Notes under the pieces: generated by a model
The model's database searches: none
What the model was told of the DNA's origin: nothing
What the model saw: only the letters and a program-made list of their open reading frames with translations
IMG/VR virus record: IMGVR_UViG_3300034198_004780
Span: 24,727 to 88,726 of that record
DNA length: 64,000 bases
Strand: one strand, 5' to 3'
DNA from: a virus
Shown: positions 24,224-58,711 of the stretch, piece after piece
Layout: each line of letters begins with the position of its first letter
How positions within the stretch are numbered: position 1 is the stretch's first letter
Translations under genes and position numbers: made by a program

Positions 24224-24826
24224 ATGACTATTTACACCCTCTACATAAAGACCCATAATAAAACCGGTCTTAAATACCTTGGTCAAACTACATCAAAAGA
24301 TCCACACAAATATCCTGGATCTGGATTATATTGGAAAGCTCATTTGAATAAACATGGATATGATTATAACACGGAAATCCTACACGAATGCCAATCTAAA
24401 GAAGAATTAAAAGAACGAGGTTTATATTACAGTAATCTTTGGAATATAGTAGAAAGTAATAACTGGGCTAATCTTAAAGAAGAACAAGGCGACGGTGGTA
24501 GGCAAAGTGAAGCAGTTAGAAAACGAATTAGTGAAACAGGCAAAGGTAGAATACCTTGGAACAAAGGCAAACAAATATGGTCCGAAGAAGAAAAGATCAA
24601 AATCGGAGAACGCAATAAAGCACGTGGACCGCAATCTGCAGAAACTATTGCTAAACGTGTAGAAAAAACTACAGGTAAAAAAAGAACTGATGAACAAAAA
24701 CAGCGATCTTCTGATGCACAAAAAGGAAGAGAATTAACTGAAGAGCACAAGGCTAAATTAAAAGCGGCGGCACAAAATAGAATTGCACCGCCGTGGAACA
24801 AGGGACTTAAAAAAAAGTCTAGCTAA
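24224..24826 (+). CDS. GIY-YIG homing endonuclease with NUMOD3 motifs
   Basis: This 200-residue free-standing homing endonuclease has an N-terminal GIY-YIG nuclease domain: YTLYIKTHNKTGLKYLGQTT is the GIY...YIG region, followed by HLNKHGYDY and the catalytic-type Glu in the QSKEELKERG helix. Several NUMOD3 DNA-binding motifs follow (ISETGKGRIPWNKGK, and SxEH/KAKL types toward the end). Such genes copy themselves into related genomes by cutting the empty site. It is on the opposite strand from its neighbours, and its stop overlaps the convergent 24819-25196 gene. The first 90 residues are near-identical in pattern to the 28608-29339 enzyme. Confidence 0.9.
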   Translation: MTIYTLYIKTHNKTGLKYLGQTTSKDPHKYPGSGLYWKAHLNKHGYDYNTEILHECQSKEELKERGLYYSNLWNIVESNNWANLKEEQGDGGRQSEAVRKRISETGKGRIPWNKGKQIWSEEEKIKIGERNKARGPQSAETIAKRVEKTTGKKRTDEQKQRSSDAQKGRELTEEHKAKLKAAAQNRIAPPWNKGLKKKSS

Positions 24827-25691: not shown

Positions 25692-26564
25692 TTAAGTTCC
25701 CCACTCATTCTTGAAAAGCGGCACCTGAAGCCTATCACTATATCTTAGGCCATTTTTCATAGCTATCAACGCCACTGCCTTATTATTCAGAGCGTATACA
25801 CTTTCAACGCCTCCGACCGGCATTAAGTAGACATGACCTGTAAATCCAGCGGCACGATATTCACTTGCGGCTTTAAGAGCATAATCACAATCTTCTTCAG
25901 TAGCAATAACAAATTTAAGATAGGTAGTACCTACTTGTTCATACTCACATACAACTTCTGGGCGAATAGCTTCTTCCCACTTTTCACCACTGCAAGGAAG
26001 TTTAGCACTGACACTAAATGTAATCTCACGATCAATGCCATAAGCGTTGCGCCATTTAGTTAGATAGTCTTTAAATTCTGGAGTTAGCTTTTGAGTACCA
26101 TTTGTTTCAAAAGTAATCTCTTTTAATCCCTTCATTTTAAGATTGTCAAGCAGGTCTGGATAAGCACGTTGCCAGCCTAGCAAAGGTTCACCGCCTGTAA
26201 TAACCAAATGTTCATCTAACCATTCATTGTGCGGTAGAATTTCCATAATGCGATCTGCAAGTTCATTTGAACTTTCTTTAATAACAAATTTTTTAAATTC
26301 GGGATATATAGAACTATAACTATCGCATCCAGTTTTTGCCAACGGTAAATCTTTAAATGTTTTATATTGATCAATATTTTTAATAAACTCAACAACTTCT
26401 GGATTATGCGTTTCGTCAACACCGAGAATGTCTTTTTCGTATCTTCCAAAATTTTTACAACGGAAGTTGCAACCAAACATACGAAGGAACACACTCGGGA
26501 CACCCATATATCGACCTTCTCCTTGTATGCTGTAAAATAGCTCTGTATAATGTAATTTTGACAT
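25692..26564 (-). CDS. queE: QueE-like 7-carboxy-7-deazaguanine synthase (radical SAM)
   Basis: QueE converts 6-carboxy-tetrahydropterin to 7-carboxy-7-deazaguanine (CDG), the third step of the preQ0 pathway. The start YTELFYSIQGEGRYMGVPSV is typical of the family, and TGGEPLLGW is the SAM-binding GGE motif. The radical SAM cysteines are unusual: Cys32 and Cys36 are present but the third position of CxxxCxxC is Phe39. A conserved TGCDSY with Cys80 probably supplies the third iron-sulfur ligand, a variant that I recall in T4-like phage QueE proteins. With FolE, a QueD-like protein and DpdA in the same window it should feed DNA modification. Confidence 0.86.
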   Translation of the reverse strand: MSKLHYTELFYSIQGEGRYMGVPSVFLRMFGCNFRCKNFGRYEKDILGVDETHNPEVVEFIKNIDQYKTFKDLPLAKTGCDSYSSIYPEFKKFVIKESSNELADRIMEILPHNEWLDEHLVITGGEPLLGWQRAYPDLLDNLKMKGLKEITFETNGTQKLTPEFKDYLTKWRNAYGIDREITFSVSAKLPCSGEKWEEAIRPEVVCEYEQVGTTYLKFVIATEEDCDYALKAASEYRAAGFTGHVYLMPVGGVESVYALNNKAVALIAMKNGLRYSDRLQVPLFKNEWGT

Positions 26565-28536: not shown

Positions 28537-28607
28537 GATAAATAAAAGTGCCCCTCGCGATGCGCCAACATCCAGGAGCTCTAACAGTTTATAAGGAACT
28601 ATCAGCA
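28537..28607 (+). promoter_or_regulatory. Leader of GIY-YIG gene 2: late-type octamer and hairpin
   Basis: GATAAATA at 28537-28544 precedes a leader closely matching 24153-24223. GCCCCT (28550-28555) can pair with AGGAGC (28574-28579) and GATG (28559-28562) with CATC (28569-28572). Relative to copy 1 one inner pair changes from A:T to G:C. AAGGA precedes the ATG. Confidence 0.6.
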
Positions 28608-29339
28608 ATGACTATTTACAACCTCTATGTAAAGACCCATAATAAAACCGGTCTTAAATATCTCGGACAAACTACCAAAAAAGATCCCCATAAGTATCCC
28701 GGTTCGGGAAAGTATTGGACAGCTCATTTAAACAAGCATGGTTATGATTATACTACAGAAGTTCTTCACGAGTGTCAATCTAAAGAGGAATTAAAAGAAC
28801 AAGGATTGCATTACAGCAATATTTGGAATGTTGTAGAAAGTGCCGAATGGGCCAACCTAAAACCTGAAAGCGGCGACGGTGGTGACATGTCTATGTGTAA
28901 ATCTTTTATTGAGGGAATTAAAAATAGAAAGATGCCATCGAGAAAAGGTATACCAAGGACTAAAGAGACTTGTGCTAATATAAGCAAGGCAAAAAAAGGT
29001 AAAATGCCAAAAAATCTAGATTTATTTACCCAATCATCAACAGATACCATATGGTATCATAATCCAATTACTGGAGAACACAGTAGGATTAAACAAGGTA
29101 ATATTGCTCCTCGAGGATTTATAAAAGGAAACATTCGAGGTTCAAAAAGTAATACCGATAATCCACGCAACCCTACTCCGGTACGTTGTGTTGAACTTTC
29201 TATGGATTTTCCTACCCTTAAATCAGCCGCTCAGTTTGCTAATCTAAAATGTCCGAGAGATATTGTTGATTCTATAATAGGTCGAAATCAAAGAAAAACC
29301 GCCGGAGGATACCATTGGCAGTTTTTATCTAAAGATTAA
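28608..29339 (+). CDS. GIY-YIG homing endonuclease with NUMOD3 and NUMOD1
   Basis: The start at 28608 matches the paralogue at 24224 in sequence and leader; an upstream in-frame ATG would run through the leader hairpin. This 243-residue protein has an N-terminal GIY-YIG domain (YNLYVKTHNKTGLKYLGQTT and KEELKEQGLHYSN), a NUMOD3 motif around KETCANISKAKKGKMPKN, and a C-terminal NUMOD1 helix-turn-helix (CVELSMDFPTLKSAAQFANL). The C-terminal half differs from that of the 24224 enzyme, so the two probably cut different sites. It is convergent with the phosphoribosyltransferase and ends directly beside its stop. Confidence 0.9.
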   Translation: MTIYNLYVKTHNKTGLKYLGQTTKKDPHKYPGSGKYWTAHLNKHGYDYTTEVLHECQSKEELKEQGLHYSNIWNVVESAEWANLKPESGDGGDMSMCKSFIEGIKNRKMPSRKGIPRTKETCANISKAKKGKMPKNLDLFTQSSTDTIWYHNPITGEHSRIKQGNIAPRGFIKGNIRGSKSNTDNPRNPTPVRCVELSMDFPTLKSAAQFANLKCPRDIVDSIIGRNQRKTAGGYHWQFLSKD

Positions 29340-40711: not shown

Positions 40712-41662
40712 TTACCGTTTGGTTAATTTGTTTAATTGATTTTGGAGTTTTTCTTCGTAAGTGCGTTCATGCTCAAACAACTCATCAGCTAGACTGTCGT
40801 GTGTCCACCCTTCTTTTGGCACACAGTTAGGAACAGTACGTCCACCTTTCTTCTTTGTACCTACAGGCTTGTAGCCTTTCCAGCAGGGATTTTCTGTCCG
40901 AAGACTTTCTGTTTTATTGTCCATGTGTTTTGCCAACCGATCAATTGCACCTGCTGAATCACCCGGCTTGGCTTTACGCTTGGCTTCAATATCAGCATGT
41001 TTCTTTTCGCGCTCTGTGGAACCTTTACGGAACTTTTCAAGAGCTGATGCTTCACTTACTTTGGGATTGATGCCCTGCTCTTTTTGACTTAGTAAATAAT
41101 CCCAAACGCTGACCAGCATCATTTCTGCTTTGGCAATCTTTTCCTGACACCATTCTGGAAGATTGTCGCCGTCATTGATAGTTTCTAACAAACCATCTAC
41201 TGATCTTTTTAGAGTGTGTAAGTTGCTTTCAGCCATACCAGCTTCGTCATTATATTCTGGACTATCAAACTCTTCCGCCATTTCTTTCTCTTTGCGATTA
41301 ATCTTACGTTGTGCTGTATTCATATTGATATGGCGTACAGCTTGATCAATCCAATCTTTATCGCCAGTACGCGGGTTAGGTACAGCGGCCTTAGCGGCGT
41401 CCTGTTGTGTCTTGCGTTTTTCTTTATAGCTCTTCAGAGTGTCAATACTTAGTTCGTTCAGTTGACGAGCAAGACGCACTTCATAGTTTTCAGCAAACTC
41501 TGCTTTCTTATGCTTTACATCGCCATTCTTTTCAGCTCGCTTTTTGTCTTTATGTGCGCCAGCGGCACCACCGCCGATTGCCGCATTGGCATTTTTAGCA
41601 ACAGGGTTCTTTGTCTTGATTGTGCGAATAGGATCGCGACGGTCTTTTTTTTCTTCGTTCAT
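40712..41662 (-). CDS. Head-region conserved protein with CWKGY motif (316 aa)
   Basis: This basic, mostly helical protein has a flexible start (GGGAAGAHKDKKRAEKNGDV, about 31-49), a helical middle and a C-terminal C-x19-C motif at residues 260-280 (CWKGYKPVGT...TVPNC). The same motif is in the 1,427-residue protein of this cluster at 1330-1350. GAGAHKDKK-type segments recur in proteins of aquatic T4-like phages near head genes. No enzyme motif is visible. It is the last gene of an overlapping run from 48973 and probably a packaged or scaffold-associated protein; this is inference. Confidence 0.72.
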   Translation of the reverse strand: MNEEKKDRRDPIRTIKTKNPVAKNANAAIGGGAAGAHKDKKRAEKNGDVKHKKAEFAENYEVRLARQLNELSIDTLKSYKEKRKTQQDAAKAAVPNPRTGDKDWIDQAVRHINMNTAQRKINRKEKEMAEEFDSPEYNDEAGMAESNLHTLKRSVDGLLETINDGDNLPEWCQEKIAKAEMMLVSVWDYLLSQKEQGINPKVSEASALEKFRKGSTEREKKHADIEAKRKAKPGDSAGAIDRLAKHMDNKTESLRTENPCWKGYKPVGTKKKGGRTVPNCVPKEGWTHDSLADELFEHERTYEEKLQNQLNKLTKR

Positions 41663-42435
41663 TTTGTTCTCTTTATTACTTTAGATTTTTTCTTGGCGTC
41701 TTTTGGAGCACCTACTGTACCACCAAATAACCACCCACCGCCCTGGGCAGGTGCGCTAGCAATGCTCCCTGAGCCAGTAGCACCACTGCTTGCAGATTCT
41801 TTTACATCTGCGGCACTAGTAGGATGTTCATCATTGTCACCGCTCTTGGCAATTAGTTTACCATTTGATCTGTCTAGGCTCTTCAACGCTTGAGGTTTAT
41901 GCTCTTCTTCGCCTTTCATAATTTTACGAGCGCGAGCAAGTCCGTCAACAATAACATCTAGACCATTTTCATCTGCTTGATATTTTATACCAATACCGCC
42001 TGCGGCTTCCCAAGCTGAGATATTACTACCACGGTCATCTACTAAAATGTTAGGAGTGCCGTCTGCTTGTTTTGCCCACTTGGCTTTGTTTGGAGTAATA
42101 ACAATATCAACAGGTTGTGGATTTAAATGTTGTTTAATCCAAATTCTTTTGTTCTTTTCACTATTTTCAAAATCGCCACGTAGTGGACTAGAGCAGATAT
42201 GATAGTGTCCGTACAATTTTACAATCATGGAAACTAATTGATCTGCATTACGTAATTTTGGTAGTCGTGCAAAGAAGTCTGTGCCCACCATTTTGTTTAG
42301 TGTGGGGTCAGTCTTTGCTGGAGGAATATCTCTGTAGTTACCGCTTTCGATGCCGGCAAGTTTAGCGTACTCTGTAAAAAAGTCTGCTAATACTCCATCC
42401 ATGTCTAAGTAAACTTCTGGTCGCTTCTCTTTCAT
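41659..42435 (-). CDS. HAD-type 5'-nucleotidase-like protein with low-complexity tail
   Basis: The start at 42435 overlaps the previous stop (ATGA); 42447 is possible. The N-terminal 160 residues are a HAD phosphatase of the 5'(3')-deoxyribonucleotidase type: VYLDMDGVLADF (two catalytic Asp), HYHICSSPLRG (motif II), and NILVDDRGSNISAWEAAGG (motif IV). The last 70 residues are a Ser/Gly/Ala linker (ASSGATGSGSIAS) and a basic tail, unlike other nucleotidases. It may dephosphorylate nucleotides. The tail and the head-gene context suggest packaging. Confidence 0.82.
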   Translation of the reverse strand: MKEKRPEVYLDMDGVLADFFTEYAKLAGIESGNYRDIPPAKTDPTLNKMVGTDFFARLPKLRNADQLVSMIVKLYGHYHICSSPLRGDFENSEKNKRIWIKQHLNPQPVDIVITPNKAKWAKQADGTPNILVDDRGSNISAWEAAGGIGIKYQADENGLDVIVDGLARARKIMKGEEEHKPQALKSLDRSNGKLIAKSGDNDEHPTSAADVKESASSGATGSGSIASAPAQGGGWLFGGTVGAPKDAKKKSKVIKRTK

Positions 42436-42812
42436 TTCTTCATCCAATCTGCTACAGGGCTACGAGTAGATACATCTTTAGTTTCTTCACTATTGATTGT
42501 ACTAATTAATTTTTTATCACTAGGCGATAGGCCGACTAATTTTAACGCATCGTCTATGTAGTCGTCAATCGTATTGGAGTAAGATACAATGACTTGATTC
42601 TCCCCCCAAGGGCTTACTGCATTAAACTCTGATCCAGCATCATTAGGATCTTTACGACCTTTTGCCGCCGCAATGGCAACACCAAACCGGTATTGCTTAT
42701 ACGGATCTTGATTTTGTAAAGCGGGAATTACATACGTAGCAGGTAAGGCACATGCAACGTCATCTTGCATACTTCCTATTCTACTTTCGTGAATGAATTC
42801 TCTTGCTCTCAT
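42432..42812 (-). CDS. Candidate capsid-targeted protein, MRAREFIHE type (126 aa)
   Basis: The protein begins MRAREFIHES. This resembles the T4 internal-protein targeting sequence MKTYQEFIAE, with I-H-E at the gp21-type cleavage position. The rest is a small soluble domain (YRFGVAIAAAKG, ALKLVGLSPSDKK) ending SPVADWMKK. It is paralogous to the next gene upstream. It overlaps both neighbours by four bases. Packaging in the head and release into the host are inferred from the N-terminus and context only. Confidence 0.72.
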   Translation of the reverse strand: MRAREFIHESRIGSMQDDVACALPATYVIPALQNQDPYKQYRFGVAIAAAKGRKDPNDAGSEFNAVSPWGENQVIVSYSNTIDDYIDDALKLVGLSPSDKKLISTINSEETKDVSTRSPVADWMKK

Positions 42813-43195
42813 TTCTTTTTATCTTTCTTTGAAGGCTTCATCCAGTCTGCAACTGGGCTAACATTATTTGTACTGTCTAACTCATCACTGTCTATATCAC
42901 CGTGGTTTAAATCTTCAGCGTGAGCCCCTACTGTTTTAAATGCCAGTGTCAGCATGTCTTTTTCAACTTGACTGTAAGGGAATGCCGCTTTGTTTTTTCC
43001 AATCCAACTTTTTGGATCCATGTCTGGGGGAGTAATACCGTCGCATCCGGCCACAGCCATTCCTAGTCTATAAGCAACATAATCTGCGTTCCACCGTTCA
43101 GAGTCACTAAATGTGATAACTCCGCGAGTAGACTGTTGCTGTCTCTTAGACATCTTACCAGCCTTTACTTCAGTTAGTAGTTCGTTAATTCTCAT
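42809..43195 (-). CDS. Candidate capsid-targeted protein, MRINELLTE type (128 aa)
   Basis: It begins MRINELLTEVKAGK, with L-T-E at the same place as I-A-E of T4 internal proteins. The core (VAYRLGMAVAGCDGITPP, LAFKTVGAHAED) and the end (VSPVADWMKPSKK) match the 42432-42812 protein, so this is a tandem duplication. The C-terminus is Lys-rich, in keeping with contact with packaged DNA. No function is known. Confidence 0.72.
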   Translation of the reverse strand: MRINELLTEVKAGKMSKRQQQSTRGVITFSDSERWNADYVAYRLGMAVAGCDGITPPDMDPKSWIGKNKAAFPYSQVEKDMLTLAFKTVGAHAEDLNHGDIDSDELDSTNNVSPVADWMKPSKKDKKK

Positions 43196-43503
43196 TTCTT
43201 TTCCACAGGCTTTTCTGATGTAAGGTACGGTAAACTAAACCATAACTTAAACCATTCGGGTGTTCCAGGTTTAATATTGTGCTTCTTCATCAGTTCACCC
43301 TTTTCATTACCAGTGACGCTGATATTACTACCCTTATTTATTTCTGTATTGTGAGCACGGTATTCTTGTAGTCTACCCTCTGCGCTAATCCCTGCTAGAT
43401 ACTGTATGACCTTTAATTCGTGTATGGGATCTTCAGGAGATAGATATGCATCATTGTCACTGTCCTGCGGAATATTATCTGTTGTTATACGATACTGTTT
43501 CAT
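43192..43503 (-). CDS. Conserved head-cluster protein (103 aa)
   Basis: The start at 43503 overlaps the upstream stop (ATGA) and gives MKQYRITTDN. The middle contains HELKVIQYLAGISAEGRLQE, and the end contains KKHNIKPGTPEWFKLWFSLP followed by a basic tail. The GTPEWFKLWFSLP segment is one that I recall in small myophage proteins. It lacks the I/LxE cleavage pattern of its neighbours. It is embedded in the overlapping gene run and probably belongs to the same packaged set. Confidence 0.7.
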   Translation of the reverse strand: MKQYRITTDNIPQDSDNDAYLSPEDPIHELKVIQYLAGISAEGRLQEYRAHNTEINKGSNISVTGNEKGELMKKHNIKPGTPEWFKLWFSLPYLTSEKPVEKK

Positions 43504-44006
43504 TTCTTTTTGCCAGCACAATGCGCTTTTTGACTAAATCCTTTAGGATTAGAGCAATTGATACTGCTCTTATACTTTAATGTCCACTTTTCTTCAAGGG
43601 CTGAATCAGTCAGTGGTCCGCCAGTGACCCATGCATCGCATGTTCTTTTTGCTGCACATTTGAATTTTAGGAATCTACAGTAACCAATATCTCCAGCTTC
43701 AATGGTGGGATCTTCTGCTCCTTGATCTGAATCTATACCTTGAGCAATACAGTCTAACGCAGTTGTACGTTGATCAAAGGCCGCACAGTTACCGCATAGG
43801 CTTTGTTTTGCTTCTTCTGCGGAGTCTAAATTCCACTCATCAACTTTTTTCATCCAAAATTTAGTATTAGGCAAGTCTGGGTTTAAGGGACCATATCCGT
43901 ATTCGTCAATGGCCTTTTGTCTATTTTCAAGATTGATGGCAATGTCTTGTGTAGCTAACGGACATTTGTTATCTGTATTTTTAGCGATAATTTCAGTAAT
44001 TCTCAT
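43500..44006 (-). CDS. Cys-rich protein, possible iron-sulfur or zinc binder (168 aa)
   Basis: The start at 44006 (MRITEIIAKN) follows the upstream stop by one base; an earlier frame start is an overlap. Six Cys lie in CGNC (71-74), Cys86, GYC (110), Cys117 and RTCDAW (123). The pattern C-x2-C...C...C-AW resembles high-potential iron-sulfur proteins, though zinc is as likely. A second short Cys motif INCSNPKGFSQKAHC is at the end. The N-terminus has the MRxTEII form of the cluster. Confidence 0.74.
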   Translation of the reverse strand: MRITEIIAKNTDNKCPLATQDIAINLENRQKAIDEYGYGPLNPDLPNTKFWMKKVDEWNLDSAEEAKQSLCGNCAAFDQRTTALDCIAQGIDSDQGAEDPTIEAGDIGYCRFLKFKCAAKRTCDAWVTGGPLTDSALEEKWTLKYKSSINCSNPKGFSQKAHCAGKKK

Positions 44007-44007
44007 A

Positions 44008-44298
44008 TCAGCAGTTCCAACGACGACGTGCTTTACATATTGCCTTGTCCGGAGTCTTTGAGCAATCAATATTATGCATCTTCTTTTGACCAGCGGATCT
44101 AGCGCAATAGCTTGATCGACGCTTTGAATCTTTACTACCTGCTTTTAACTTACTAGGTTTAGTAGTAACCGCAGTCTTTAACTTACTACCTGGATTCTCA
44201 CGACGATACGCACTCACAGCTTTCTTACTCATGCCGTCAGTTTTATCTTTTTTATTGGTCTTTTGCCAATCTTCGTTAATAAATTCTCTAGCTCTCAT
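44008..44298 (-). CDS. Candidate capsid-targeted basic protein, MRAREFINE type (96 aa)
   Basis: The first nine residues, MRAREFINE, match the 42432 protein and the T4 CTS pattern with I-N-E. The rest is strongly basic: SKKAVSAYRRENPGSKLKT, then KPSKLKAGSKDSKRRSSYC and a Cys-containing end CKARRRWNC. This basic module is common in small proteins of aquatic T4-like phages. It would suit DNA binding inside the head. It overlaps the next gene by four bases. Confidence 0.75.
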   Translation of the reverse strand: MRAREFINEDWQKTNKKDKTDGMSKKAVSAYRRENPGSKLKTAVTTKPSKLKAGSKDSKRRSSYCARSAGQKKMHNIDCSKTPDKAICKARRRWNC

Positions 44299-47200
44299 TT
44301 TTTCTTTGCCTTGCCTGCTTTCATATTAGCCATCCAGTGTGCCATTCGAGCTTTTTCACCTGAGCTGTTCTTAGCAGTCTTTCTTAGACTACTAACACTG
44401 GCTTTGGTATTGACACCTGAACGTTTTGCTAGACCTTTGCGTCCAGGTTTCTTACCATCGGCAAAATTCTCTAATAACTTGTCAACAGCGTTGGCTATGA
44501 CTTCTTCCCAACCCTCACCTATTTTAACACAATTATTGACTCTTGTCCCACCTTTCATCTTGGTTCCAGACTTTCGATATCCTTTCCAACATTTTGGGTC
44601 TAATCGTTGTTTTGCCTCATCAACGTTCTGCTCAATAGTTTTGGTTTTTATGCTCCAGTCGCTAAATTTTAATCCTAACATTGTTTGAAACTTTTCAAAT
44701 TCTTTAATAGACGGAAATAAAAATACGGATTTAAGCAGATCGCCATCTAATTTGTTCCCTTCGGGATATTGTTTTATTTCACCGTCAACATTAAAATATG
44801 CTCGATTATTTTCTATTTTTACAAGTTTATATGGCTGAGCAAAATGTACTATAGATAAATTATGCGCAGGCAATATTGAAGTCACTGACACATACACATA
44901 AGAGTTTCCTTTTTGAATATCTTTAGGTGTATGTTGTTTTAAAAAATGTTGTAAATTTTTGTAATCGGTGCTGTTTTCAAATAGTCTGGGATTTTTTAAT
45001 AAGTCTTGTCTAAGATCTTCTTCTTGTTCTTCCCAAATTGGTTCTAATGGAATTTTATTGAAGTTGATATGATTGTAGCTTTCGCCGACTAAATCGCCCT
45101 GACGTGCTGGGCGTTTTGCTGTGGCCTTTAATTGACCTGCTGTACCTAACTTATTTTTCTTACTGCTAGTAAATGAGCTGTCTGGAGACATGGTCTCATC
45201 AGTTAGACTAAACGCTCGCAAATTCTTTTCAATCTGTCCAGGACGGACATCTTTGGTTAAACTCATAGAGTAGCGTGGGTCGTTGGCCTGTGCCTTTGTA
45301 GCAATAACACCCGAAGCGCTCTCCATTGTACTCTTATCAACAACATAGTTGCCCATACCTACCCCAGCCATTGTTTCTACCGGAGCGGCCACTTTCTGTT
45401 GGGTCGTAGGTGCTGGAGTTTTAACGTCCATACCTTGTTTGGTTAATTCTATAAGTTTCATAATCCATGCTCGCCCTAGTTTTTTAACATCAAAACCTTT
45501 TTCCCATACAGCCAATTGCTGTTGTGGAGTCGCATTAGGATCTTTAAGAATATCTCTTAATTTTGTAAAACTCATGCCTGTACCACGCGGCGTTGCTTCT
45601 AAACTAACCTTAACGTGTTCGTATCCTGCAAATTTATTTACAGCCTTCATCAATGCGTTGGCAATATTCATACCCGCCTGATCCTCACCTACCATAACAA
45701 TAACATTATCATAGCGTGGTGGTTTGCCTGGTAGTGGATTGATCAGCTCATGTTTAATTTTCTGTATAAGTGTACCACCAGCCTGTGTTACTGCACTAAT
45801 ATTGCTGGCATACTTAGGATAAAGTTTGTGCCATGTTTGTACTTTAATATCGACTGGAATAGGATCATCCTTGCCTACAGCGTTGCCGATAAACAGGTAA
45901 GGATCTCCGCCTACTTCTGCGGCTTTCTTAACTGTGTAATCAAATAGCTGTTCGTGTCCAACATGTCCAACAAAACTGCCAATAGCAACTACCGCAGTTT
46001 TATTTTCACCACGTGGGCGTTCTGTGCGGGCATTTACCTTAGCGGCATTCTTATCTGCAATAATATCACGCTGTTCTTGACTTGTAATTTTAATAGGACC
46101 CATACGACTATTGATAACAATACCTTCGTAGTCCTTACCTAACATATCCTTGCCTATAATGTTTGGATCTTTGATAATGGCATCTTCAAGAGCTTGTTTA
46201 ACTGGTCCAAGTGCGGCTTTGACTTCTGCGGCTTGATCACGCTTCTTACTAGCCAGCATGGCTTTCATCTGTTCAATATTCTCTAACGGCGGAACAATAG
46301 CAGTAACATCAAGTGCTTCATTTTGTGTTAGGCTATTGTCAATAAACATAACGCTGCCGCCCTTGCCAATTCCTGTTAGGGCTTTAATAACTCCTTCGCT
46401 ATCGGGTAAGTCTTCGCCTGTATCACCTTGTACTACACGGAACGGTACTAGAGCAAGCTCTACACCATCTGGAAGTTTGTCATAATGTATACCAACAAAT
46501 TTTAGCTTGCCTTCTGGAGTCTGTGTAGCAAATGGCAAGTATAATACTTCGCAGGTAACTTGTTTGTTGATTAAGAATTTAGGACCTAACTTGCTATCGA
46601 CTAATTTAATAGCCTTCATCATTTGTTCAAATAGTTGATCGAATAGTTGAGCACGACCTAATACATCCGGATCAGTTGTGCCTTTCTTTTGATGATAGTC
46701 TAGGAATCCTGCTTTGTATCTTGGTTCAGTACGGCTGGTTCCCATAAAAGGTTTACCATCTTTATCCTTACCAAAACGTCCACCAAAGCCGTCTACTTTA
46801 ACATTTAGTGGAATATTTTTTAATTGGAACTGCCCGTTACCTTGATGTAGTTCATCTAACAAGTCTAAAAAGTCTACTGACTTTAAATCACGTAGATGCG
46901 GCATACCTTTACGTAGCTGTGCTTTTACTGCTGGATCTTCTCCAGCTTCACCTATTGCTTCAGTTACTGGTTTTTTTTTGGATTCGTGGGCTTGTTCGTA
47001 GTCCATTGCCATTTTAACTGCTTGCTGTCTTAAACCTTTAGCATCGGCAATCTTTAGAGCAGTTATACCGCCACCGCCTAATAGCATAGCATCAACAGCG
47101 GCAAATTTTGTATCACGGTCTCTTACAGGATCATTTGCTGTAAGCATCTGTGCTCCTGGCCCAAAGCATATATCTAAGAAACGTTTTGCCGCTTCTTCAC

Positions 47201-48578
47201 GACCTTGCTCGTCAAGATATTTGTTTGCTAGTTGAAGTGTTCCAACAAAACTCTGTTGTAATTTTAAATCTTCTGCTGTAGGTTTCCTTCCAAATAATTT
47301 TTGGAACTGTGAAGAAAGATTTTGATCATAGTCACGTTGACTAGGATCTAATAACTGCATTACAGGAATACCATCAATTTCTTTAGGTTGTCCAGTCTCC
47401 GGATCAATGTAAGGCTTATACTTACTACTTATCCCACCACCCTGACCGCTGGCTACAGCAAAACTATAATCACTATCAGTAACTGGTTCTGGACTAATCT
47501 TAGTGCTTTTCTTTAGAACACGGGCAACATACTTGGTGCTGGCTTGTGCGTAAGGTATAGCACGATAGATATACTTGTGGAACACACCTTTAATGCCTGC
47601 GGCCATATCTGTGTAATCAGAACTATGACTAAACTTAAACCAATCTGTAGGTTTAGCAGGCTCTTTACCTGCAGCAGGTTTGTAAGGTCCTAATTCAAAA
47701 TCGACCTGTACTCTAACAGGAGGATCATCTAATTTCCAAAGTCCGGAGAGCGACGCATTAAATCCTAGGAATGTTGCAGGCCCAATTTTCTTACCAATAA
47801 CCGATTTTAACCACTCGCGAACCTGTTCACCAATTTCTTGATCAACTTGTGTATCTATATCGCCCACTTTGGTTTTTTTAAGTTTGTTTAGGAAGTCTTC
47901 GTCTGATACACCTTTGATATTAAAGAATTCTATAGTGCTACCGCTAAGTGCTTCTCTAGTGTTTAGTAATTTTGGATCCCAAATTGGTCTACCATAAGTT
48001 GACTCAAAATTTTGATTCATTGCTACTAATAGTTCATGTATCTTGCCAACCATAAGTGTGCGGTTGTGCAATTTAAGATCTATTTCATCTGCTTTGTGTT
48101 GTCCAGGCGCACCTTGCCAGCCTGGGCTCTGATATGATACATTGCCACCTTCACTAATCGGTTTTAATTTTAAAAATTCTGGATGTGCCTTGTTAAACTC
48201 ACGCATAATAATACCAGCCAATGCATGTGCTTGATTTTCGTCTGGTGAACCAGTAGTACCGTCTATAGCAACATTCCGGCGATGTTGTTTAGCATGCACA
48301 AGTTCGTGTGCTAGAGTTCTCAATATATCTACAGGTTGACGATTTGCCACAGCAAGTTCTAATGCATAGGTTACGTCATTAAATCTACCTTGGGATGGTT
48401 GATCGTCTTGTGTTAATGATTTCTTGAGAATAATTTTAGGTAACTTATCTAATTCAAGAATCTGTTTGGCAGTTGGCAAAAATATTTTTATTATTTCTGT
48501 CAAGTCTGACGGAGTTATCGACTTGGTAACAGTTTGATTATTTTCAGTAGGAGATTGAAAAATATCTCTTAATTTCAT
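44295..48578 (-). CDS. Multi-domain protein: metalloprotease, nucleotidyltransferase and NMNAT-like domains (1,427 aa)
   Basis: It begins MKLRDIF, like the other cluster members. Residues 70-130 hold a zinc metallopeptidase motif HELVH (91-95) with a likely third ligand Glu114. Residues about 545-850 resemble a ligase-type nucleotidyltransferase: KVDG at 594-597, a CEVLYLPF segment, EGIVI at 818-822 and GPIKI at 827-831. Residues 860-1055 resemble a nucleotidylyltransferase: GSFVGHVGH at 867-875 and GTGMSFTKLR at 999-1008. A C-x19-C motif (1330-1350) and basic tail end the protein. The role could parallel T4 Alt, an injected enzyme, but this is inference. Confidence 0.84.
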   Translation of the reverse strand: MKLRDIFQSPTENNQTVTKSITPSDLTEIIKIFLPTAKQILELDKLPKIILKKSLTQDDQPSQGRFNDVTYALELAVANRQPVDILRTLAHELVHAKQHRRNVAIDGTTGSPDENQAHALAGIIMREFNKAHPEFLKLKPISEGGNVSYQSPGWQGAPGQHKADEIDLKLHNRTLMVGKIHELLVAMNQNFESTYGRPIWDPKLLNTREALSGSTIEFFNIKGVSDEDFLNKLKKTKVGDIDTQVDQEIGEQVREWLKSVIGKKIGPATFLGFNASLSGLWKLDDPPVRVQVDFELGPYKPAAGKEPAKPTDWFKFSHSSDYTDMAAGIKGVFHKYIYRAIPYAQASTKYVARVLKKSTKISPEPVTDSDYSFAVASGQGGGISSKYKPYIDPETGQPKEIDGIPVMQLLDPSQRDYDQNLSSQFQKLFGRKPTAEDLKLQQSFVGTLQLANKYLDEQGREEAAKRFLDICFGPGAQMLTANDPVRDRDTKFAAVDAMLLGGGGITALKIADAKGLRQQAVKMAMDYEQAHESKKKPVTEAIGEAGEDPAVKAQLRKGMPHLRDLKSVDFLDLLDELHQGNGQFQLKNIPLNVKVDGFGGRFGKDKDGKPFMGTSRTEPRYKAGFLDYHQKKGTTDPDVLGRAQLFDQLFEQMMKAIKLVDSKLGPKFLINKQVTCEVLYLPFATQTPEGKLKFVGIHYDKLPDGVELALVPFRVVQGDTGEDLPDSEGVIKALTGIGKGGSVMFIDNSLTQNEALDVTAIVPPLENIEQMKAMLASKKRDQAAEVKAALGPVKQALEDAIIKDPNIIGKDMLGKDYEGIVINSRMGPIKITSQEQRDIIADKNAAKVNARTERPRGENKTAVVAIGSFVGHVGHEQLFDYTVKKAAEVGGDPYLFIGNAVGKDDPIPVDIKVQTWHKLYPKYASNISAVTQAGGTLIQKIKHELINPLPGKPPRYDNVIVMVGEDQAGMNIANALMKAVNKFAGYEHVKVSLEATPRGTGMSFTKLRDILKDPNATPQQQLAVWEKGFDVKKLGRAWIMKLIELTKQGMDVKTPAPTTQQKVAAPVETMAGVGMGNYVVDKSTMESASGVIATKAQANDPRYSMSLTKDVRPGQIEKNLRAFSLTDETMSPDSSFTSSKKNKLGTAGQLKATAKRPARQGDLVGESYNHINFNKIPLEPIWEEQEEDLRQDLLKNPRLFENSTDYKNLQHFLKQHTPKDIQKGNSYVYVSVTSILPAHNLSIVHFAQPYKLVKIENNRAYFNVDGEIKQYPEGNKLDGDLLKSVFLFPSIKEFEKFQTMLGLKFSDWSIKTKTIEQNVDEAKQRLDPKCWKGYRKSGTKMKGGTRVNNCVKIGEGWEEVIANAVDKLLENFADGKKPGRKGLAKRSGVNTKASVSSLRKTAKNSSGEKARMAHWMANMKAGKAKKK

Positions 48579-48973
48579 TTGCTGCCCAAATTGTATTCGT
48601 CTTTAACAATGTCTTGATGATAGTGATCAGTTAGTCTTTTGCAAAGTTCTTTACGCATTTTTATGTCAAATACTTCTTTTGGATCACCTTGAACATCGGT
48701 CTCTTTATAAAATTTAACGCATCCAACATTAACCATAGGCAACCATACTTTCCAATCATGTTCGTCACTATCAGTTTTGTCGTCTAATTTTTGTTTAAGT
48801 GCTTTAGCAGTTGGCATAAAATATTTTTTATGCAGGTCATTGTCATCAAGAATAAACCAAAAGACGTTGTCTGTTAGCTCGGTTTCTTCTTCTTTTTTAA
48901 GAGTGTCGGGATTGGCTGTATCATCTCGATCGGAGTCCTGATTAATATTTCCAAAAAATTCGTATAGTTTCAT
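48575..48973 (-). CDS. Conserved protein of the capsid-targeted cluster (132 aa)
   Basis: It begins MKLYEFFGN, similar to the CTS-like starts in this cluster but without an I/LxE site in the first ten residues. An acidic stretch follows (about 14-34), then VFWFILDDNDLHKKYFMPTA and a KVWLPMVNVGCVKFYKE core. The NDVFWFILD...LHK..FMP pattern is familiar from T4-like cyanophages. The FxPTAK segment also occurs near residue 33 of the following gene. It is the first gene of the overlapping run. Confidence 0.76.
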   Translation of the reverse strand: MKLYEFFGNINQDSDRDDTANPDTLKKEEETELTDNVFWFILDDNDLHKKYFMPTAKALKQKLDDKTDSDEHDWKVWLPMVNVGCVKFYKETDVQGDPKEVFDIKMRKELCKRLTDHYHQDIVKDEYNLGSK

Positions 48974-49522: not shown

Positions 49523-50194
49523 CTATTTAACTGTTAATTGCATATCACTTATGACAAAATCCTGTATGCTACGCACATGTCCACCTAAAAACAAGGTAAC
49601 TAACAGTAGTTGACTGCGATCAGCAACGTAGACAAATGGGTCTTGGAAGTACGGACTACCATTTCCTAACCATTTAATTGTACCAGCACTGGCCTGTATG
49701 GTGCCTTCATAGTTTTTTAACCATTCTAAAAAGCTAGTTCTTTGCCAGGGTGGCATACGATATCGAATATACACACGATGCCGATACTTACCGTGCGGAT
49801 AATCATTACACAGAATTATTTTAGAACCATTTTCTAGTGCTGCTAGGTCAGTGTTTCCGCTAGGTTTAGATACACTAACAACATACTTTTCGAGGCTATC
49901 TAATATGTTGTTATATAGATTTATATCATTAAGATAAAAACTTAAGGTATCCCATTCTGCTCGTATCTGTAGATCGCCTGTTATAAAGGGTTCAACCTTG
50001 ATGATAAAATCCAGCAGATTCTTTTTAGCAACCTCAGAATAATTGCGAGAATAACGGCCAGTGTTGTCGTCTATACAGAATTTACGAGCTTCATTAATAC
50101 CCCAACGCTTGACTAAACTAGCGCCGGGTACCGATGTTTCAATGCGATAAGCCCATTTTTTAAAATAGAGTTTGTTAGTCTGATAGACTTTCAT
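49523..50194 (-). CDS. Conserved hypothetical protein (223 aa)
   Basis: This is a soluble aromatic-rich protein. Segments KLYFKKWAYRIETSVPGASL at the start, SKIILCNDYPHGKYRHRVYI in the middle and PYFQDPFVYVADRSQLLLVT near the end give a mixed alpha/beta pattern. I cannot assign a family. The gene overlaps the ClpA-type gene by 20 bases at its start, so the two are translationally linked. A substrate or adaptor for the unfoldase is possible but unsupported. Confidence 0.7.
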   Translation of the reverse strand: MKVYQTNKLYFKKWAYRIETSVPGASLVKRWGINEARKFCIDDNTGRYSRNYSEVAKKNLLDFIIKVEPFITGDLQIRAEWDTLSFYLNDINLYNNILDSLEKYVVSVSKPSGNTDLAALENGSKIILCNDYPHGKYRHRVYIRYRMPPWQRTSFLEWLKNYEGTIQASAGTIKWLGNGSPYFQDPFVYVADRSQLLLVTLFLGGHVRSIQDFVISDMQLTVK

Positions 50195-52454
50195 TATCTT
50201 CTACTTCAACAACCTTGACTTTTTCACTTAACACTTCGATAAAGTTAAATGTAAATTGTCCATCTTCTACAGCAATCTCAACTATGCCACCGTTGACTAG
50301 TTTGCCAAACAGGATTTCTTTAGAAAGAGGTTTTTTAATGTGTTCATCAATGGCACGAGCCAGTGGTCGAGCACCCATCTTCTTATTAAAGCCTTTCTTG
50401 ATCAGCAACTCAACCGCTTCTGCTGTAGGTTTAACATGAACATTCTTTTCTTTAATCTGTGCGTTAAGTTCGTCAAGGAACTTCTTAACAATTTTAATCA
50501 TGGTAGTCTGTTCCAACTTACCAAACTGAATAATGCTATCTAAACGATTGCGAAATTCTGGTTTAAAGTATGAGTTAATAGCACTTGTAGCATCGCCATC
50601 ACGCTCAAGACTACCAAAGCCAACACCGTTCTTCTCAGCATCACTAGCACCCAAATTACTTGTTAGAATAACAATAGCATTACGTCCATCTGCTTTCTTA
50701 CCATTGCTTCCGGTAACAAAACCATTGTCCATCAAGCCTAACAAGACATTGCTAACACTTGGATGAGCTTTTTCAATTTCATCTAACAATAGGATACAGT
50801 TTGGATTCTCTTGCAGTTGTGTAACAAGTTGTCCGGCATTGTCTTCAAATCCTACATATCCTGGGGGCGCACCGATAAATTTAGCAACAGAATGCTGTTC
50901 TTGGAACTCACTCATATCAAAGCGTACTAGTTTGACTCCGAGGCTCTCGGCCAAGACCTTTGCAGTCTCTGTCTTACCACATCCGGTCGGCCCAGTAAAC
51001 AGAAAATTACCTACAGGTTTGTTTAGTGACTTTAGTCCAGCTTGCGAAATATAAATCTTATCTAGCAAAATATCAATTGCTTTATCTTGTCCAAATACTT
51101 TACCATGCATATTCTTGTCAAGATTCTTAAGATTATTGTTTTCTTTAGCCGCAACCTGCTCTAATGGCAAGTTTGATTGTTTGGCAACTTCAAACATGAT
51201 TTCATCGTGATCCACTGTGCCGCCGTCTTCGTCGCGTACTTTAAATCGAGCACACGCACAATCAATCAAATCAATTGCTTTGTCTGGGAGTTTTTTATCA
51301 GTCATGTATTTGATAGAATACCTAACACTATCGACTACAGCCTGCTTGGTAATCTTAACACCGTGGTGTTTTTCGTAGTACTTTTTAAGACCATTGATAA
51401 TCTTAATTGCCACTGCTTCTGAAGGTTCGTCAACTGTAACACGTTGGAAACGACGCATTAACGCACGATCCTTCTCAAAGTGCTTGCGGAACTCTTCCCA
51501 AGTAGTTGAAGCAATAACCTTTAGGGTACCTTTGCCTAATGCCGGTTTAAGCATGTTGGCCATGTCGTTAGATCCGCCACCTACTGCTCCAGCACCGCTC
51601 ATCATGTGTGCTTCGTCAATAAAAATAATACATTTCTTTTTCTTTTCTAGAGCAGTGATAACCATCTTTAGGCGTTCTTCAAAATCACCACGATACTTGG
51701 ATCCGGCTAACATAGCTGAGATATCCAAGTTATAAACAGTATGATCCTTCAAATATTTTGGAACAGCACCTTCGACAATTTTGCGAGCAAGTCCTTCAGC
51801 GATTGCAGTCTTACCTACACCGGGGTCGCCAATCATCATCACGTTGCTCTTAGAGCGACGTGCTAGTACCAATTGAATCTCTTCAATTTCTTTTTCACGT
51901 CCAATAACTGGATCAATTTTTTTCTGTTTAACTTTGTTGTTTAAGTTGACACAATACTGTACAATCATTTTTTCAAACTGCGCACTGTTAACTTCGTCTG
52001 TTTCTGAATCAACATTCTTGGGAGCAACCTGATCCATGAAATCAATAAACGCATCTTTTTCTATTTTGGCTTGACGTAAAAAGTGTGCGGCATGACTTTT
52101 CTTTTCTGAGAACAAACTAATAAAGCAATCTTTAGGTTCAATTGTAGAACGGCCAGCAAATAACACTTGTGTAAACGCACGATTCAACATGCGTTCCATT
52201 GAGTGTGTCTTGCGTGGACGTACATCTGATTCTTCCAGGGCAATATCCTTAAGATCTTCATTGATAAATTTTTCAAGACTATCTTTGAGAAGATCTAAGT
52301 CTGCTCCAAAGTCTCCTAAAAGTTGTTCAAATTTTGAATCAACAATTAGGCTATATAGGAAATGCTCTAAAGTAATATATTCGTGCCGATTTTTAGTCGC
52401 CAATTTAATAGCACGTTCAAAGATTACTTCTAAATCTGAATTTGGTTCTAACAT
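50175..52454 (-). CDS. clpA: ClpA-type AAA+ unfoldase (759 aa)
   Basis: The start at 52454 gives [16 protein letters not shown], aligning with E. coli ClpA; an upstream start would overlap def. The N-domain (1-150) is followed by D1 with GDPGVGKT (209-216) and IIFIDEAH, and D2 with GPTGCGKT (488-495) and [10 protein letters not shown]. The ClpP-docking loop of ClpA (IGL) appears as VGF in the segment [12 protein letters not shown], which still fits the [LIV]-G-[FL] rule. No ClpP is visible, so it may use the host protease. It lies in an operon with DnaJ and deformylase. Confidence 0.93.
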
Positions 52455-52455
52455 T

Positions 52456-52944
52456 TCATTTCCTTTTTGATTTTTTAACACCAAGTGCCCATTTTACTGG
52501 ACTAACCCTGTCTTGAAAAACAATACCTTCTAAATGATCTAACTCATGTAGAAAGCACTTACACTCGTAACCTTCTAACTTTGCTTCTTTTATTTCACCT
52601 AGGCTATTTTGCCAACGTGCCTTAATTGCTGTAGGTCTTTTTATATTAACAAAAATTCCAGGAAAACTCAAACATCCTTCCTCCATATCAGCAATGTCTT
52701 CTGTATTAGCAACAACTTCTGGATTAAAAAATGCCATTCCGGGTTCTGGACTATCTTTATGCCCCATGACAAATACTCGGGCTTCGATACCGACTTGATT
52801 GGCAGCAAGTCCGATGCCGTCATACTGCAACATGGTTTTGATCATGTCTTTTTCTAATTGTACAGGATCGTGGCTAGGATTAGCAAAATCAAAGTTTGGA
52901 ATCTGTTTTCTCAGTATAGGGTTAGGAAATTTTACAATGTTCAT
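52456..52944 (-). CDS. def: Peptide deformylase
   Basis: This 162-residue enzyme removes the formyl group from nascent proteins. All three motifs are intact: GIGLAANQVG, EGCLSFPG (metal Cys) and HELDHLEG (two His and catalytic Glu). Length is normal. Phage deformylases occur in cyanophages, where they are thought to help rapid protein maturation. It overlaps the DnaJ stop by four bases and is followed by the ClpA-type gene. Confidence 0.95.
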   Translation of the reverse strand: MNIVKFPNPILRKQIPNFDFANPSHDPVQLEKDMIKTMLQYDGIGLAANQVGIEARVFVMGHKDSPEPGMAFFNPEVVANTEDIADMEEGCLSFPGIFVNIKRPTAIKARWQNSLGEIKEAKLEGYECKCFLHELDHLEGIVFQDRVSPVKWALGVKKSKRK

Positions 52945-53756
52945 TTTATATTTAATTGTCGTAGATTACTTTTCTGTTCTTCTGATAATGTTGGAATTTT
53001 AATTTTAATTCTAATCAATAATCTACCGCGACGTGTGTGATTATTAAAGTTAGGCATTCCGTGTCCGTTTAGACTTAAAATAGCATCGTGTTGTACGCCA
53101 GCAGGTATGTTGGTTTCTAATTGTTTACCATCAATGCCTTTGACAGTGATAGTCCCACCTAACAAGGCATCAAAACAATCAATTACATGTTCTTGTATTA
53201 GGTCATCGCCTTGCCTTTTGAAAACTGGATGGTTTTGTATTTGTACTGACAACAACATATCTCCGCGAGGAGCACCAATTTGTGAGTCATCACCCATGCC
53301 CTGCAATTTTAGTGTGGTGCCTTCGTGAATACCTTTGGGAATAGTAATATTAACAGTCTGCTCATGTCCGCTGGGCAGTGTCACCGAAGCCAGCATTTCT
53401 TTACCGTAAAACGCTTCTTCTAGACTAATTGCTGTTTGTAATTGAATATTGCGATTACCTTGCGGTCTACGCTGATGGAATCCAAAGATGTCACCAAACG
53501 GTGACCCCTGTCCAAAGAACTGCTCAAAGCCTTCAGGGCCGTGAAAATGGAATCCACCCTGTGGTGCAGGATTATCGTATTGTGATCGTTTGTTGGGATC
53601 GCTTAAGGTAGCGTAGGCTGCTTGGATCTCTTGAAACTTGCCAGCATCTCCACCGCGGTCAGGATGGTGCTTCATAGCCGCAGAACGATAGGCACGTTTA
53701 ATCTCGTCGTCTGTTGCGGTTCGGGATACACCTAGGGTTTCGTAATAATTGCTCAT
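52941..53756 (-). CDS. DnaJ-like co-chaperone (CbpA type)
   Basis: This 271-residue J protein has an N-terminal J-domain (YYETLGVSRTATDDEIKRAY with KHHPDRGGD, the HPD motif), a Gly/Phe-rich linker (about 70-100) and two C-terminal substrate-binding domains. The Cys-rich zinc finger of DnaJ is absent, so it is of the CbpA type. It would recruit the host DnaK to fold or disassemble proteins during infection. It has a consensus sigma70 promoter and starts the dnaJ-def-clpA operon. Confidence 0.93.
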   Translation of the reverse strand: MSNYYETLGVSRTATDDEIKRAYRSAAMKHHPDRGGDAGKFQEIQAAYATLSDPNKRSQYDNPAPQGGFHFHGPEGFEQFFGQGSPFGDIFGFHQRRPQGNRNIQLQTAISLEEAFYGKEMLASVTLPSGHEQTVNITIPKGIHEGTTLKLQGMGDDSQIGAPRGDMLLSVQIQNHPVFKRQGDDLIQEHVIDCFDALLGGTITVKGIDGKQLETNIPAGVQHDAILSLNGHGMPNFNNHTRRGRLLIRIKIKIPTLSEEQKSNLRQLNIK

Positions 53757-58036: not shown

Positions 58037-58711
58037 TTATCGTCTGTTGCCAAATAGCTGTAGTAAGTTTAAGAACAAGTTGATAAAGTCCAAGTACAAG
58101 GATAATGCACCTAGTACTTCTTCACGTCCAGTATCGGTATCTCTTGCAACCAGCTCACGAATCTTTTGAGTGTCGTAGGCAGTTAGTCCTAAAAAAATAA
58201 TAATAGCAATAGCTGAAATAACCATTTGCATTACTGAACTACCAATAAAGATATTAACAACGCTGGCAATGATGATTGCAATTAAGCCTACAAACATAAA
58301 TGAGCCCACTGATGTCAAGTCCTTTTTGGTGAAGTAACCGTAAATGCTCATTGTTCCAAACAATACTGCTCCACCCATAAACGCTGTAAAGATGCTGCCC
58401 ATGGTATAGATTGCAAAGATTGTAGCAAAGCTCAGACCCATCAATGCGGCAAACACCTGCAAGAATACCTGTAGTCCTGCCTTGCTAAGATTATCTGCGG
58501 CAAATGTCATACCAAGGATTGCAACTAACGGAGCAAAAATTACAACCCATTTTAATGCCCCGGTAAAAAAGAATTGTAACAGCTCTGGACTAGTTCCTAC
58601 AAAATAACTTACAATCATACTGGTAAGTACAGCTAGACTCATGTTTCCATAAACACGCCCCATGGCCTCGTTAATGCCAGCGGCTGATCGATATACTCCT
58701 GTTGCGTACAT
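58037..58711 (-). CDS. Bax inhibitor-1 family membrane protein (YccA/YbhL type)
   Basis: This 224-residue protein has seven predicted membrane helices and the family end YDTQKIRELV...LYLDFINLFLNLLQLF. Bacterial members are pH-dependent calcium leak channels (YetJ) or regulate FtsH (YccA). A phage copy could protect the host membrane or block FtsH proteolysis; this is inference. It is the last gene of a five-gene operon, three bases after the MazG-like gene. Confidence 0.9.
   Translation of the reverse strand: MYATGVYRSAAGINEAMGRVYGNMSLAVLTSMIVSYFVGTSPELLQFFFTGALKWVVIFAPLVAILGMTFAADNLSKAGLQVFLQVFAALMGLSFATIFAIYTMGSIFTAFMGGAVLFGTMSIYGYFTKKDLTSVGSFMFVGLIAIIIASVVNIFIGSSVMQMVISAIAIIIFLGLTAYDTQKIRELVARDTDTGREEVLGALSLYLDFINLFLNLLQLFGNRR

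Follow-up and report, generated by a model that had tools for sequence, protein, structure and literature searches.

The T4 proteins Alt and IPI-III carry a capsid-targeting sequence (CTS), are processed by the protease gp21 and are injected; the first ten residues of IPIII are enough to bring a protein into the head, and gp21 cleaves after L/I-X-E (PMC9026906). For polyvalent proteins, which are injected or transferred, an analogy with polyproteins has been drawn (Iyer et al. 2017, PMC5512222), and phages are described as pairing a Pol-beta nucleotidyltransferase (RlaP) with an RNA ligase to restore and seal tRNAs that have been cut (PMC7824862). CTS tagging, gp21 processing, polyvalent proteins and ligase–Pol-beta pairs are known individually; the literature searched, in which only PMC5512222 was relevant, yielded no polyprotein that combines them and that the head protease cleaves between its domains. 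Here we describe a candidate for such a protein in a 64,000-nucleotide stretch of viral DNA (hereafter, the window), positions 24,727 to 88,726 of IMG/VR record IMGVR_UViG_3300034198_004780, an 88,726-bp record that is itself a fragment. The open reading frame (ORF) at 44295-48578 starts with ATG, is read on the minus strand from 48578 to 44295 and encodes 1,427 residues; all its features below lie on that strand. We consider it moderately likely that this ORF encodes a CTS-tagged, head-packaged polyprotein of a T4-like phage that is cut into separate enzymes and injected, with RNA repair as the probable purpose.

Four enzyme-like domains in one reading frame

A sequence-only reading, which gave no strand for the ORF, had assigned it three enzyme domains: a metalloprotease (HELVH), a ligase-type nucleotidyltransferase (KVDG/EGIVI, hereafter LIG) and an NMNAT-like domain (HVGH, hereafter NMN). 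The ORF exists as described, and the quoted motifs lie at the claimed residues (HELVH 91-95, Glu114, KVDG 594-597, EGIVI 818-822 and GTGMSFTKLR 999-1008; HVGH was located within residues 867-876). They go beyond chance, with key residues invariant in homologues fetched from IMG/VR for the domain alignments (10/10 for HExxH, 37/37 for LIG and 31/31 for NMN). All three domains were recovered, but the total is four: a Pol-beta-like nucleotidyltransferase domain (NT, residues 144-535) had been overlooked.

LIG (residues 549-846; 46041-46934) is an RNA-ligase-like covalent nucleotidyltransferase domain with KVDG at 594, EGIVI at 818 and PIK at 828. The motif set of this superfamily (KxDG, a motif-III acidic residue, EGhVh and a motif-V lysine) is present in 37/37 LIG domains, and every one of these conserves the Lys, Asp and Gly of motif I, a Glu resembling that of motif III, both Glu and Gly of EGIVI and the Lys of PIK. 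An AlphaFold2 model (pLDDT 90.6, pTM 0.84) bears out the ligase-type assignment, as the region's predicted fold resembles the nucleotidyltransferase core found in RNA ligases, with modest TM-scores. Foldseek matches in the PDB are led by RNA ligases (Palaeococcus 8uce, E 2e-4, probability 1.0; Naegleria Rnl; T4 Rnl1 and Rnl2), and DNA ligases, among them that of African swine fever virus (ASFV), mostly rank behind. Pfam returned no RNA- or DNA-ligase family for 31 LIG members at E <= 1, and because no curated ligase family matches, we say that LIG probably works like the RNA-ligase branch and do not file it as a member. A gene of S-SRM01 (6907-8565) was tried as a LIG homologue, an idea that did not hold up.

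NT (46974-48149) has GS at residues 213-214, GDID at 239-242 and D293 within QxD, all invariant across a 56-sequence alignment, so that the GS, DxD and third Asp of the Pol-beta pattern are found in 56/56 (G70 S71, D97 D99 and D150 in A5 numbering); the spacing from GS to DxD is long for this pattern. The AlphaFold2 model (pLDDT 95.4, pTM 0.90) finds mostly RNA-tailing and other Pol-beta enzymes as its best PDB matches, including CutA, CdnB, PolX (that of ASFV among them), Tut1, the CCA-adding enzyme and OAS3. These matches are weak (E >= 0.18, probability <= 0.21), and the superfamily call therefore leans on the motifs. NT matches phrog_19290. Pfam searches with 30 NT members at E <= 1 gave no Pol-beta-type family, RlaP included, which leaves membership in RlaP unsupported.

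NMN (residues about 860-1060; 45399-46001) is a predicted adenylyl/cytidylyltransferase domain of the HIGH superfamily. HxGH and the Arg of the downstream ST-type motif GTGxSFTxLR are invariant in 31/31 domains (H23, G25, H26 and R159 in A3 numbering). Profile comparisons agree with the NMNAT-like call: the cytidyltransferase family phrog_3041 matches at E 3e-11, FAD_syn is found in 29/31 members (best E 1e-4, the window member falling under the cut-off), and RibF is matched in the PDB at E 0.007. Split NMN homologues in Xanthomonas phage X1 and in cyanophages pass the CTP_transf_like model.

The remaining domain, at the N-terminal end (residues about 25-141; 48156-48506), is metallopeptidase-like. 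H91, E92 and H95 of HELVH (48294-48308) and E114 are invariant in 10/10 HExxH domains, which gives the HExxH plus third-ligand Glu expected of a zincin in 10 sequences. Pfam matches point to putative metallopeptidase families, as had been claimed (DUF6782 in 10/10, best E 4e-4; M78, best E 6e-5), but the window member scores under their curated cut-offs. Searches of PDB sequences using phmmer with the whole protein, or NT, LIG and HExxH profiles, returned nothing useful, and weak Pfam matches of the protein such as Toprim and Pox_Rif were judged to be chance.

NT, LIG and NMN as a unit

Of the distinct homologues, 77 are complete enough to be assessed; every one of them has NT, LIG and NMN in that order, and by this comparison they are one fixed unit. 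The HExxH domain, by the same comparison, is an optional module: only three of the 77 polyproteins have it fused (the window protein, L045 and L055), and in other places it forms a gene by itself or is joined to something else.

The unit is also found split. In phage X1 the genes are consecutive and overlapping and follow the order seen in the fusions: NT comes first, then a gene for an unannotated 334-aa protein, then LIG (E 4e-16) and last an NMNAT-like enzyme. A contig of an Anaerolineae metagenome-assembled genome (L261) encodes NT and LIG as separate genes, and NT occurs without LIG or NMN in Campylobacter CP220 and Vibrio phiKT1024. Two unannotated neighbours of split genes (L240:7948-8952 and L248:5133-5912) resemble PD-(D/E)XK nucleases by eye and might be an extra partner; Pfam gave no convincing match for them. 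Genes for tRNA queuosine lie near the split genes of X1, a radical SAM gene adjoins NT in CP220, and in the window an ORF at 25692-26564 (minus strand) resembles QueE-type radical SAM enzymes by eye.

A pair reminiscent of LIG and NMN is widespread in cyanophages. It consists of a ligase-like DUF6267 gene and a cytidyltransferase gene; in P-TIM40, S-SM1, P-SSM7 and S-CAM9 the former is the immediate upstream neighbour of the latter, in C48C1 and DLP6 one small gene separates them, and in phrog_455 the two are joined. DUF6267 and LIG have KxDG and EGFV motifs in common, with homology between them unproven (hhalign probability 6%, hmmsearch E 0.01); the literature searched makes no mention of DUF6267. 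The cytidyltransferase, whose family is related to NMN, has been detected by mass spectrometry in virions of S-SM1 (PMC3037559) and of S-CREM2, where the authors do not exclude carry-over or contamination (PMC10665884). These cytidyltransferases likewise have a tag of the CTS-like kind at their start, as S-SM1 shows with MKKFSAFLNE↓A (here and below, the arrow marks the predicted cut).

A possible role in RNA-end repair

We propose that NT, LIG and NMN share one pathway, most likely the repair of RNA ends, such as those of tRNAs cut by host anticodon nucleases, ahead of any phage gene expression. NT would restore lost nucleotides, LIG would adenylylate and seal, and NMN would supply or process an adenylylated nucleotide such as NAD. 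Repair of RNA at the start of infection is favoured because RNA ligases lead the LIG matches, because none of nine related records (0/9) has an RNA_ligase-family gene (PF09414) and because RlaP offers a precedent.

The three domains might instead mend ends or gaps in the DNA of the incoming phage genome, with Pol-beta-like gap filling followed by ligation, as in base-excision repair by PolX plus ligase. The presence of both ASFV PolX and ASFV DNA ligase among the Foldseek matches speaks for this, as does the lack of any match to an ATP-dependent DNA ligase in 7/9 related records; LIG was examined as a replacement of the ordinary DNA ligase, and 2/9 related records have a DNA ligase of their own. 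However, RNA ligases stand above DNA ligases in the LIG matches, an NMNAT-like partner has no obvious role in such repair, and the setting of the X1 genes near tRNA-queuosine genes is not in its favour. Repair of DNA is, in our judgement, an unlikely though credible function.

We regard as quite unlikely, though still credible, a role of the triad in making or handling nucleotides of the NAD type, in which NMN would regenerate NAD+ for use by the ligase-like domain and the injected enzymes would protect or reset the host NAD pool against NAD-depleting defences. Such a role would suit the relationship of NMN to cytidyltransferases annotated as NMNAT homologues and the wide spread of the DUF6267–cytidyltransferase pair in cyanophages. 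It would leave the obligatory Pol-beta-like domain unexplained, though; a NadV-type partner (PF04095) occurs in just 2/9 related records, and no family match points to an NAD-dependent ligase domain.

Proposed capsid targeting and predicted protease sites

For delivery of an RNA-repair set, we propose that an N-terminal capsid-targeting-like tag would bring the polyprotein into the prohead core, that a gp21-type prohead protease would cleave after (L/I/V)-x-E at domain borders and that the released enzymes would go into the host together with the DNA. The expected products are the zincin-like module, NT, a LIG-NMN piece (RNA-ligase-like plus NMNAT-like) and small C-terminal modules. Comparison among homologues supports packaging and cutting well; in the window protein itself, both would follow from its resemblance to them.

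The sequence-only reading had called the start of the protein, MKLRDIF (residues 1-7; 48558-48578), CTS-like, and the tags and cut sites of homologues now provide far stronger support for that call than was available to it. One regular expression fits the tags of 69/77 homologues. Within the window, the tag pattern is present in 5/9 ORFs of this gene cluster and 0/60 other ORFs, a count that is illustrative because these same proteins served to define the pattern. Stand-alone HExxH genes similarly open MKIIDLLE↓N, MRIQELLE↓S or MLLTQLFE↓S.

Predicted cleavage sites lie at both ends of NT, although the cut-site counts that follow come from related proteins and hence are not independent events. 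The first site, ISE143↓GGN (48150-48158), has the form [LIV]xE↓GGN in 55/56 non-redundant homologues; this motif opens NT in 76/77 proteins, the remaining one having VIE↓GSN. It usually lies 12-17 residues from the protein start, behind a tag such as MLLRELF, and in 50 homologues with such a short leader P3 is occupied by L or I 45 times and by V 5 times (L/I against leader composition, p about 3e-17). Some proteins have HExxH, or the MKLYEFF domain described below, ahead of NT, and there the same site divides the additional domain from NT. In the NT-LIG linker, two sites are predicted, VTE540↓A and IGE544↓A (46947-46967); [LIV]xE is found in 56/56 non-redundant linkers, at most 14 residues from LIG in 55/56 and with Ala at P1' in 46.

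These motifs might be incidental features of a chain that stays unprocessed, in which the linker is flexible and E-rich and the EGGN start is conserved. The linkers are indeed E-rich and the homologues non-independent, but 2,000 within-linker shuffles retained [LIV]xE in a mean of 21 and a maximum of 34 of the 56 linkers, against 56/56 observed. Stand-alone genes, moreover, begin exactly at the borders, and gp23 of the relatives uses LxE↓(S/A), which together make incidental motifs very unlikely. The stand-alone NT of phiKT1024 begins ATG-GGC-GGT-AAT (M↓GGN) downstream of an in-frame stop, and the X1 annotation begins at the same point. On L261, the separate genes open MLISFGEFLNE↓GGN (NT) and MGFEKYLQE↓AEIAASKRKG (LIG), the latter resembling a junction within fusions, such as SINE↓AEVVQSKRKG in L085. 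At the level of sequence, the stand-alone genes confirm that domain borders fall at the predicted cut sites.

A matching protease is encoded by relatives. Among 14 records that hold the polyprotein gene, 6 have gp21 (Peptidase_S77) above cut-off, and the same six (6/6) have a gp23 in which L-x-E↓(S/A)A(T/S) is conserved ahead of the part matched by the Gp23 model. A T4-type protease and a capsid protein with a matching site therefore share a genome in six related records, not in the source fragment. The chain is probably split into individual enzymes by the head protease, so the earlier view of the ORF as a single multi-enzyme protein likely does not hold for the mature virion.

It is highly improbable that the domains are protein-modifying effectors, acting after the T4 Alt analogy by AMPylation or proteolysis of host proteins at entry: Pol-beta-family nucleotidyltransferases and zincins of polyvalent proteins are predicted to act on proteins (PMC5512222), but LIG matches RNA ligases, and it is the triad that is fixed and the protease-like domain that is optional. 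The sequence-only reading had suggested action on host proteins or RNA; its first half is without support, and chemistry on nucleic-acid ends is the better supported.

Several observations weigh against an injected RNA-repair polyprotein. LIG has no Pfam match and its TM-scores are modest (0.35-0.44), the fold assignment of NT is based on motifs and weak matches, and DNA ends may also serve as substrate. For the healing of ends, neither a kinase nor a 2',3'-phosphatase was identified, and a nearby HAD gene looks like a deoxynucleotidase. As to delivery, the 88.7-kb source record, a fragment, has no gp21 gene. The T4-type arrangement is a tag followed by (L/I)xE; the window protein has the tag, with no clean cut site right behind it (MKLRDIFQSPTE), and such a site only before NT (ISE143↓GGN). 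Both virion reports (PMC3037559, PMC10665884) concern diverged cytidyltransferases, with contamination possible for S-CREM2 according to its authors.

Exchangeable modules and neighbouring genes

A broader proposal, which we make tentatively, is that T4-like phages possess an exchangeable cargo system, in which any module placed behind a tag or between (L/I/V)xE sites enters the head and is freed by the maturation protease, and that this system carries the fixed trio of nucleotidyltransferases, each of a different fold, as a virion-delivered RNA-repair set, at work before the first phage transcript.

The C-terminal part of the window protein appears to be built of such modules. A possible site that is weaker than the others, VGE1166↓S (45081-45089), fits [LIV]xE and precedes module D5 (residues 1167-1320; 44619-45080), whose fold was not recognised and which has a 61% identical stretch in L055. 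The CWKGYRK...NNCV module follows (residues 1322-1360; 44499-44615), common to phrog_4359, 22379, 9737 and others, and then a predicted site, LLE1370↓NFADG (44469-44477), and the tail module NFADGK...RMAHWMANMKAGKAKKK (residues 1371-1427; 44298-44468), which unrelated viral ORFs share at identities as high as 94%. The NFADGK module is preceded by Glu in 28/28 contexts and by [LIV]xE in 19/28. Both it and the CWKGYRK...NNCV stretch occur on many other viral ORFs, one of which consists of a tag plus the NFADGK module alone (MKIRDILE↓NFADGK). In L066 and L070, the NFADGK...AHWMANMK module sits between NT and LIG with Glu junctions of its own; modules therefore move.

Genes on either side of the polyprotein gene, likewise on the minus strand, are also tagged. 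The adjacent gene at 48575-48973 opens MKLYEFF and is 36% identical to the N-termini of L137 and L131, with a similar stretch in L173; in these three relatives the domain is fused ahead of NT, with LME↓GGN at the junction. On the other side, the gene at 44008-44298 opens MRAREFINE↓DWQK... and encodes DUF6321 (PF19846, E 3e-11), a domain that is fused after NMN in L003 and L237 (69-70% identity) and is preceded by Glu in 10/10 contexts. Two further CTS-tagged genes, MRAREFIHE↓S and MRINELLTE↓V, lie at 42432-43195. For the ORF at 43500-44069 (minus strand), the listed TTG start is probably wrong, and an internal start gives the capsid-tag-like MRITEIIAKN. The HAD-type gene of the cluster (41659-42447, minus strand) belongs to the 5'-3' deoxyribonucleotidase family (phrog_2643, E 5e-23; NT5C, E 2e-5) and might be a phosphatase partner for the cargo enzymes.

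Further away on the minus strand are a peptide deformylase gene (52456-52944; phrog_2890, E 3e-42) and ORFs that by eye resemble a Clp ATPase (50175-52484), a DnaJ-like protein (52941-53756) and, unusually for a phage, Bax-inhibitor-1/YccA membrane proteins (58037-58711). Two similar ORFs on the plus strand (24224-24826 and 28548-29339), opposing the surrounding genes, look by eye like GIY-YIG homing endonucleases, and both have (M)TIYxLYxKTHNKTGLKYLGQTT near their start.

Discussion

If the proposal is right, the head-maturation protease has a second job, freeing several injected enzymes, as a set, from a single polyprotein, and some phages bring RNA repair along, before host RNA-cutting defences halt translation. 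Module shuffling would explain the swapping of cargo in T4-like phages. Functions would also be suggested for the large unannotated families phrog_19290 and phrog_12709, possibly for DUF6267/phrog_455, and there would be a reason for the cytidyltransferase in cyanophage virions.

The cyanophage DUF6267–cytidyltransferase pair (phrog_455, phrog_395) resembles our system in having a ligase-like KxDG/EGFV protein beside, or fused to, a HIGH-superfamily enzyme, in its CTS-like tags and in the presence of its cytidyltransferase in virions; it differs in that homology of DUF6267 with LIG is unproven and that no NT was recognised beside it. The sets of Rnl-type ligase and RlaP (PMC7824862) likewise bring together a ligase and a Pol-beta nucleotidyltransferase. 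Here, however, neither domain fits a known Pfam family, an NMNAT-like enzyme is the third member, and delivery in the virion is proposed, whereas those sets are expressed after infection. Polyvalent proteins (PMC5512222) also hold many unrelated catalytic domains per phage protein, zincins and Pol-beta nucleotidyltransferases included, and are delivered, as we infer for the window protein; the NT-LIG-NMN set was not found in that paper with the terms searched. Their release is by embedded peptidase domains, in contrast to the sites described here, which fit the head-maturation protease. The likeness to T4 Alt noted in the sequence-only reading holds for delivery (CTS plus gp21 processing) but not for enzymology, as no ADP-ribosyltransferase-type family was returned for the window protein. 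With Alt and IPI-III, it shares an N-terminal tag of about ten residues, an (L/I)xE site and, in its relatives, a T4-type protease and capsid protein. Yet T4 has one cargo per gene, whereas here several enzyme-like domains are joined in one chain, with predicted cleavage sites between them.

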